64,000 nt of DNA, taken from Clostridiales bacterium GWF2_38_85. GTDB taxonomy: Bacteria; Bacillota; Clostridia; Oscillospirales; CAG-382. Position numbers and translations under genes: made by a program. Shown piece by piece: positions 4,920-6,074 of this stretch. The stretch covers positions 62,001 to 126,000 of the forward strand of contig MGOY01000018.1 of NCBI GenBank assembly GCA_001797275.1, read 5' to 3'. The first letter of the stretch is position 1, and the number at the start of each line of letters is the position of its first letter. The notes beneath the pieces are model-generated. The model searched no databases and was not told the DNA's origin. It worked only from the letters and a program-made list of their open reading frames with translations.

Positions 4920-6074
4920 GTGAACGTTTTGCCCGGTGTTACAAAAAGAAAGTACGATGGTGAAACCATGCGTATAAATAAAAAGCTAAAAAGACCATTG
5001 TACATTGTGGCACAAATATTGCCGCCTAATTATAATGCAAAAGTTCTTCTCGACAACTTTAAGGAGTTTTACCCTTTTGAATGGGAAGAAATTGTAGAAA
5101 GATGCAATCATTATTTAGAGAAAGATAAATTTCTACAAGAGGTTGGAAAAAAGGAAAGATATAGACCTCCAACACCCGAAAAATTCTTTTATGAAAACTC
5201 TGTAGTAAAGAATATTATGAGCAAGAATTTTATTGAAAAACATAGTGCTGAATATGATGATGAAAAAAGAAATGAAATACTTAATGAGTTAAAGGCAAAG
5301 AGATCACGCAAGATTGAAAGCAAAAAGAATCAGATTCAAGAAGTTCAAGAATCAATGCAAAATGTTGAACCCTATTATGTAGATGTGCTTATATCGGCGT
5401 ATCATCAGAAAGGCATAACCACTGAAGGTAAAATTGAAATTTTAACCGAGATGGGGAAATTCATCTGCGACAAATCCATTGAATTTTTTCATAAAATTAA
5501 CGATGCGGAACGTAATAACCAAATTCGAAACATAGCGTTTGAGCATTTGCAAAAAAACGGTCACTATGTCAAACTCCGACAGAAATTCAAAGGCAAACAG
5601 AAATCCTATATGGTCGACACCTTTAATTTTGATATGACACCAAAGGATTTGGCGAAACGTCTTGAAATGGATAGTATCCAAAACAAAAAGAGATTCGGAG
5701 TGTTTGTTTCACACCGCTTTCTTGATGCGAAAATTGTTAGAGAAGTTGTAAAAATCCTAAATGCCCAAGGGCTTAGCTGTTATTGCGATTGGTTAAGTGA
5801 CGATGATTTTCTTAAAAGAAGTCTTGTTAGTAGCTACACAGAAGAAGTTCTTAAAAAACGTTTAGAGCAATCAGATACTTTGTTGTTTTTGCGTACAGAA
5901 AATTCAATGAAAGACAATAAAATTGATTCCCCGTGGATACAGCTTGAGTTAGATCATTGTTCGGTATTGGGCAAAAAGATATATTGCCTTGACTTTATAA
6001 ATGATGGAACATCGTTACCATTTACTTTTTTGGAATTTGATCTTGATAAAGGGTTAATAGATTGGAGCCGATAA
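4920..6074 (+). CDS. TIR-domain protein embedded in the BREX operon
   Basis: C-terminal FGVFVSHRFLDAKIV...YCDWLSDDDFLKRSLVSSYTEEVLKKRLEQSDTLLFLRTENS...SPWIQLELDHCSVLGKKIYCLDF matches the bacterial TIR-like pattern (DW-D-L-R / QSD-LL / W-x3-E). The N-terminal ~240 aa is unassigned. Start may be TTG at 4929, 8 nt after AGGAGG. Confidence 0.82.
   Translation: MNVLPGVTKRKYDGETMRINKKLKRPLYIVAQILPPNYNAKVLLDNFKEFYPFEWEEIVERCNHYLEKDKFLQEVGKKERYRPPTPEKFFYENSVVKNIMSKNFIEKHSAEYDDEKRNEILNELKAKRSRKIESKKNQIQEVQESMQNVEPYYVDVLISAYHQKGITTEGKIEILTEMGKFICDKSIEFFHKINDAERNNQIRNIAFEHLQKNGHYVKLRQKFKGKQKSYMVDTFNFDMTPKDLAKRLEMDSIQNKKRFGVFVSHRFLDAKIVREVVKILNAQGLSCYCDWLSDDDFLKRSLVSSYTEEVLKKRLEQSDTLLFLRTENSMKDNKIDSPWIQLELDHCSVLGKKIYCLDFINDGTSLPFTFLEFDLDKGLIDWSR

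Follow-up and report, generated by a model that had tools for sequence, protein, structure and literature searches.

The window analyzed here is a 64,000-nucleotide stretch of contig MGOY01000018.1 (positions 62,001 to 126,000, forward strand) from Clostridiales bacterium GWF2_38_85. It carries a gene for a protein with a C-terminal TIR domain, located between pglX and pglZ of a bacteriophage exclusion (BREX) operon and on the same strand as both (Table 1). This type I BREX is complete and runs, on a single strand, from brxA through brxB, brxC, pglX, and pglZ (type A) to brxL. The genes were supported by the Pfam models BrxA, BrxB, BrxC, PglZ, and BrxL and, over cut-off, by the NCBIfam models for BREX-1 PglX, PglZ type A, BrxC, and BrxL.

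The open frame of the TIR gene runs uninterrupted from 4920 to 6074. An earlier annotation made from the letters alone (the sequence-only reading) had the position and the intact frame right, but its start at GTG 4920 has to be corrected. The gene almost certainly starts at TTG 4929, because GTG 4920 runs out of the Shine-Dalgarno sequence AAGGAGG at 4914-4920. The relatives of the protein begin with MPG at the position corresponding to TTG 4929, and the database copy (P0002) comprises 381 amino acids (aa), in agreement with this start. The ATG of pglZ follows 3 nt downstream of the TIR gene stop, and the spacing of the three genes fits translational coupling. Since promoter and terminator scans scored at chance level, the same as shuffled sequence, it is from the spacing that co-transcription with the complete BREX operon, as previously proposed, was judged probable. 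The G+C content of the TIR gene is 33.6%, versus 43.4% for pglX and 44.4% for pglZ. An annotation artefact was ruled out by the intact frame, the strong Shine-Dalgarno sequence, and hundreds of relatives.

The TIR protein is a member of the ThsB family, the sensor of Thoeris systems. The PADLOC ThsB model PDLC00426 matched residues 26-361 with E=4.1e-116, so the likeness is not due to chance. Pfam TIR_2 matched residues 261-346 weakly (E=4.7e-4, below the Pfam cut-off). Because Pfam shows only this sub-threshold match, the sequence-only reading found no family for the N-terminal ~240 aa. That part belongs to the ThsB family as well and is conserved to about the same degree as the TIR region: in 108 full-length relatives, the mean majority-residue fraction was 0.62, 0.52, and 0.71 in three stretches of the N-terminal domain versus 0.65 in the TIR core. 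The protein search returned 238 relatives, and nearly all of the 120 listed were full length, with 44-65% identity. On a Mammaliicoccus plasmid, a long TIR protein (364 aa), a short TIR protein (202 aa), and ThsA are encoded consecutively as a ThsB-ThsB-ThsA operon, and the window protein shares 42% identity with the long one over 366 aa. Based on this identity, on an operon layout like that of staphylococcal Thoeris, and on the spacing of the Phe and Glu residues, we assigned the window protein to a putative ThsB1 type of Thoeris sensor.

The TIR gene is the sole TIR_2 or ThsB match in its own genome, and relatives in the host's order and class were found in four genomes only, the two placed on the tree belonging to a distant subfamily. 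A close-clade profile searched against a sample of the phylum recovered the window's own genome only. The genome-contig scan with the single TIR protein, made for the context of close homologues, found nothing, and neither did the viral-contig scans with two alignments. The full TIR protein had no relative in phage records. Among solved structures, the only convincing sequence relative was the TIR protein 8btn_B, which matched over the C-terminal part (E=1.6e-17).

The AlphaFold2 model, built from 108 sequences, reached a predicted local distance difference test score (pLDDT) of 93.2 and a predicted template-modelling score (pTM) of 0.86. It consists of helices over residues 7-249 followed by a TIR fold. 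Foldseek matched the model to SARM1, TIR-STING, EcThsB2 (8v6t), and deoxyribosyltransferases, with weak E-values but to folds of the right kind. The model and these matches, together with PDLC00426 and the weak TIR_2 hit, confirm the C-terminal TIR domain. A fold search with the N-terminal domain against PDB and viral models returned nothing below E=0.1. This helical domain may be the trigger-binding part.

The active-site residues are intact. In the 381-aa numbering, F259 is present in 108 of 108 aligned relatives, and E340 and W336 in all 107 that have a residue there, with one gap; the three correspond to F262, W339, and E343 in the frame from GTG 4920. The Glu of SPWIQLE, named as catalytic in the sequence-only reading, is therefore kept (Glu in 107/108, one gap). 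Roberts et al. described a catalytic Glu facing a Phe, namely F242/E318 in Sau-ThsB1 and F260/E336 in Seq-ThsB1, with a spacing of 76 (PMC12578639). The spacing is also 76 in most of the family members measured, and it is 81 in the window protein because of a 5-residue loop insertion.

For the genomic context of the family, 30 other loci were sampled, comprising 21 genome contigs, 5 plasmids, and 4 relatives of the host; the sample leaves out the closest relatives, which are metagenomic (57-65% identity; P0003-P0020). The results show no BREX genes at any of the 30 loci within the flanking DNA examined. ThsA was nearby in 11 of the 20 loci whose flanks extend at least 5.6 kb in each direction and missing from the remaining nine. 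The family is therefore mainly a Thoeris sensor in which solitary members recur. In a tree of 131 rows, ThsA-linked and unlinked members were not separated. The window protein fell in a clade of 30, where the context is known for one member only, that of Vagococcus, which has ThsA. Additionally, an E. coli plasmid TIR protein with a partial match to the family sits in an island of TIR genes and the cyclic oligonucleotide-based antiphage signalling system (CBASS), not in BREX. A separate arrangement was seen in Paenibacillus (L006, 7384-9258), where a 625-aa TIR-SLOG fusion lies beside a short and a long ThsB and replaces ThsA (SIR2-SLOG); this locus was counted among the nine without ThsA.

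A ThsA partner was undetectable. ThsA (SIR2-SLOG) is absent from the neighboring operon, and neither PDLC00407 nor PF13289 (SIR2_2) matched in the own genome, which is assembled in 47 contigs and is 96% complete, both searches being positive in control genomes. The PADLOC scan of 25 other, larger window proteins found no ThsA, and no genome-wide macro search was made for TM-macro ThsA. As a result, no complete Thoeris, in which a ThsA effector is encoded with ThsB, was detected in the assembled genome, and the window gene is an orphan ThsB.

Other BREX loci were collected with the window PglZ, which gave 13 matches in 397 genomes of the order and 35 in 399 of the phylum (own genome included in each). 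The slot survey used the 35 other loci readable from pglX into pglZ and counted cargo when at least one gene of at least 200 aa was present. Thirteen of the 35 carried one or more extra genes in the pglX-pglZ gap, mostly defence-like and some unnamed. Since the genes differ, the gap is a general cargo site, a hotspot. The cargo included an AbiJ_NTD4 protein (PDC-S32), a Schlafen/AlbA protein (PDC-S50), a DUF2971 protein, HEC-02A in two loci (each with a ~175-aa partner), an 881+387-aa pair (AAA plus AlbA) in two loci, a third AlbA/HATPase protein, and two AAA_35 proteins. In L094 (G925:C1:36001-52000, 1745-8884), the slot holds a type III CRISPR effector set (Cas10, Cmr4, Cmr3, and neighbors). 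The cargo was markedly lower in G+C than the flanking pglX and pglZ in several of these loci, as in the window. Published cases agree: Salmonella LT2 has two genes inserted between pglX and pglZ that E. coli HS does not have (PMC9009780), an insertion described in D23580 as embedded PARIS ariAB (PMC11341690), and BrxU lies between brxC and pglX on pEFER (PMC8565348).

The TIR family was found in none of the 35 slots and nowhere in the 45 BREX-bearing genomes sampled. A TIR protein is thus not a canonical BREX component, as the sequence-only reading had held, and the recurrence in other BREX operons that it had set as a test was not seen. The latter verdict is provisional, as the sample does not reach the loci of the closest relatives.

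Two further observations were made in these BREX loci. In L057-L060, four loci from relatives within the order, pglX appears divided into a long 5' piece and a detached C-terminal piece, and open reading frames of ~220-540 aa lie between the two, possibly a switchable specificity part of PglX. In L058, a 300-aa SIR2_2 protein resembling the NADase (nicotinamide adenine dinucleotide-cleaving) half of ThsA is encoded between brxC and pglX (13578-14477, minus strand).

We favor, with moderate confidence, the reading that the TIR gene is an orphan long ThsB of the ThsB1 type that occupies the pglX-pglZ slot of an otherwise standard type I BREX as exchangeable cargo and acts independently of it. 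It is probably a second-line sensor. The gene would borrow BREX transcription, with its Shine-Dalgarno sequence overlapping the pglX stop, whereas its protein most likely works apart from the BREX proteins. The helical N-terminal domain would recognize a product that the infecting phage makes, perhaps, by analogy, a major capsid protein. Recognition would then let the TIR domain process nicotinamide adenine dinucleotide (NAD+), as the conserved Phe/Glu site suggests. Because no ThsA was found in the genome, two outputs come into consideration. The TIR domain itself may consume NAD+, which is a tentative but reasonable proposal, or, by a cyclic adenosine diphosphate ribose signal, it may address an effector somewhere else in the cell, which is more tentative still. 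We lean toward stand-alone NAD+ consumption, with the effector in trans nearly as likely. The TIR of EcThsB1 hydrolyzes NAD+ in vitro (PMC11204291).

Several points weigh against this reading. Staphylococcal ThsB1/B2 without ThsA gave no protection (PMC12578639), so the orphan might do nothing alone, and the active site of Sau-ThsB1 itself is dispensable (PMC12578639). The published Sau-ThsB1 is putatively placed in the same family by the layout of its operon, its size, and the spacing of its residues, and not by a direct comparison with its sequence. A ThsA could lie in the missing part of the 96% complete, 47-contig genome. Additionally, in the STALD search of the own genome no control gave a signal, and TM-macro ThsA was not searched genome-wide. 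For the window protein, the trigger, the product, and the independence from BREX remain putative.

The alternative that survives best, although we consider it unlikely, is that the protein is an extra ThsB serving a ThsA, or an unrecognized nucleotide-activated effector, on another element or in an unassembled part of the genome. Seq-ThsB1 alone together with ThsA defends (PMC12578639), and the nine of 20 long-flank relatives without a nearby ThsA resemble the window in this respect. The negative PDLC00407 and PF13289 searches of a 96% complete genome argue against it, as does the PADLOC scan of the 25 larger window proteins. A bolder version of the orphan reading is likewise doubtful. Here, the ThsB1-type TIR would be either an NAD+ enzyme that is gated by capsid and needs no partner or a sensor that makes a nucleotide product and thereby activates a neighbor, namely a BREX protein or the ABC-three-component trio behind brxL. 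If true, one transcript would serve both to block early phage replication and to sense late phage products.

The sequence-only reading had proposed that a backup arm is built into this BREX as a variant of the system. On such a view, the N-terminal domain would detect BREX components, or notice when phage anti-restriction proteins inhibit them, and the TIR domain would then deplete NAD+. The tight operon packing and the overlapping Shine-Dalgarno sequence suggest co-expression, and other embedded genes are thought to guard BREX, such as the Ocr-responsive PARIS in the same slot in Salmonella (PMC11341690). However, published tests of PARIS in BREX-Sty gave no Ocr response (PMC11341690). None of the 30 other loci that encode the full-length protein showed BREX genes in the DNA examined, and the protein was absent from 35 of 35 slots and from all 45 BREX-bearing genomes. 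The N-terminal domain, which had been taken for a BREX-coupling domain, is the same conserved domain in non-BREX and ThsA-linked members, and no BREX-specific change was seen in it. We therefore regard the built-in arm as improbable, and a backup role after BREX failure is unsupported. Least probable is a passively carried, no longer functional remnant left after thsA loss: no partner was found and R263 (window 5715-5717), just past the FVSH motif, replaces a Ser kept in 107 of 108 relatives, but the frame and the Phe/Glu pair are intact, the ribosome-binding site is strong, and in the columns conserved at 90% or more the protein deviates at just three residues, including the one encoded by the TTG start codon. 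Catalytically active plant TIRs and SARM1 commonly have an Arg behind the FxS-x motif, which also counts against a remnant.

Returning to the locus, the features are collected in Table 1. The brxA and brxB genes lie upstream of the window, in locus L002. The likely start of brxL is ATG 8677, after pglZ, although its open reading frame was listed from 8629. Ahead of the BREX operon are an HTH_26 regulator and genes for type IV secretion/conjugation (VirD4- and TrbE-like), so the operon is located on a conjugative element or adjacent to one. Further downstream, the window encodes a P-loop kinase domain (AAA_18) fused to an aminoglycoside-adenylyltransferase-like domain (NTP_transf_2, AadA_C) at 14563-15918, and small metabolic genes follow.

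Table 1. Features of the BREX operon and its embedded TIR gene (window positions unless a locus is given).
Feature	Position	Strand	Remarks
brxC, 3' part	3..1397	+	Gene starts upstream of the window; NCBIfam NF033441 over cut-off; Pfam BrxC domains
brxC, whole gene	locus L002 (G000:C18:50001-63500), 9822-13397		1191 aa
pglX, BREX type 1 adenine methyltransferase	1412..4915	+	1167 aa, intact; NCBIfam NF033452 over cut-off; PADLOC PglX
Shine-Dalgarno AAGGAGG of the TIR gene	4914..4920	+	Strong; overlaps pglX stop TAA 4913-4915; TTG 4929 lies 8 nt downstream
Long-form ThsB (putative ThsB1-type) TIR gene	4929..6074	+	381 aa; without ThsA partner; F259 and E340 predicted catalytic pair
N-terminal all-helical domain, residues ~1-254	4929..5690	+	AlphaFold pLDDT 93 (whole protein), 90 (domain alone)
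TIR domain core, residues ~255-354	5691..5990	+	F259 (FVSHR), CYCDWLSDDDFLKR block, W336xxxE340
pglZ type A	6078..8663	+	861 aa; NCBIfam TIGR02687 over cut-off; Pfam PglZ
brxL	8677..10791	+	NCBIfam TIGR02653 over cut-off; Pfam BrxL_N, BrxL_ATPase
ABC-three-component-like trio (CTD7, MC3, DUF3732)	10833..14506	+	Separate neighboring system directly behind brxL; PADLOC scores as LmuA/LmuC/LmuB (Lamassu-like)

We compared the locus with three known systems. The TM-macro Thoeris proteins EcThsB1 and EcThsB2 (PMC11204291) share the TIR fold and the catalytic Glu with the window protein, and EcThsB2 (8v6t) was among the best fold matches. However, the EcThsB2 class has a Tyr opposite the Glu where the window protein has a Phe, its N-terminal part is also different, and the window scan showed no ThsA. 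The closer likeness is to Sau- and Seq-ThsB1 of staphylococcal and streptococcal type I Thoeris (PMC12578639), which have a long N-terminal domain, a C-terminal TIR, and a predicted Phe/Glu pair at comparable spacing. Sau-Thoeris consists of ThsB1, ThsB2, and ThsA, and its ThsB1 binds the phage major head (capsid) protein (PMC12578639). Binding of this protein, and making or helping to make gcADPR, are marks of the ThsB1 type and are putative in the window protein. The window protein differs in lying inside BREX, with neither ThsB2 nor ThsA adjacent to it or detected in the genome. Here nature has separated a ThsB of the capsid-sensor type from its effector, which makes for a clean test of whether such sensors defend alone.

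The third comparison is with the accessory genes embedded in BREX. They likewise place an unrelated defence gene on the BREX transcript, and PARIS, HEC-02, PDC-S32, and PDC-S50 share the slot of the window gene, HEC-02 and PDC-S32/S50 being 'embedded' candidates in PADLOC. The window cargo differs from them in being a TIR/ThsB protein, of which we found none reported or present in the slot elsewhere. A known family thus occupies a known cargo slot, and the combination of a ThsB in BREX without ThsA is new as far as searched. With it, a TIR sensor joins the list of defence genes carried as BREX cargo, and the pglX-pglZ gap, with extra genes in 13 of 35 loci and several of them unnamed, is a site where unknown defence genes may be sought.
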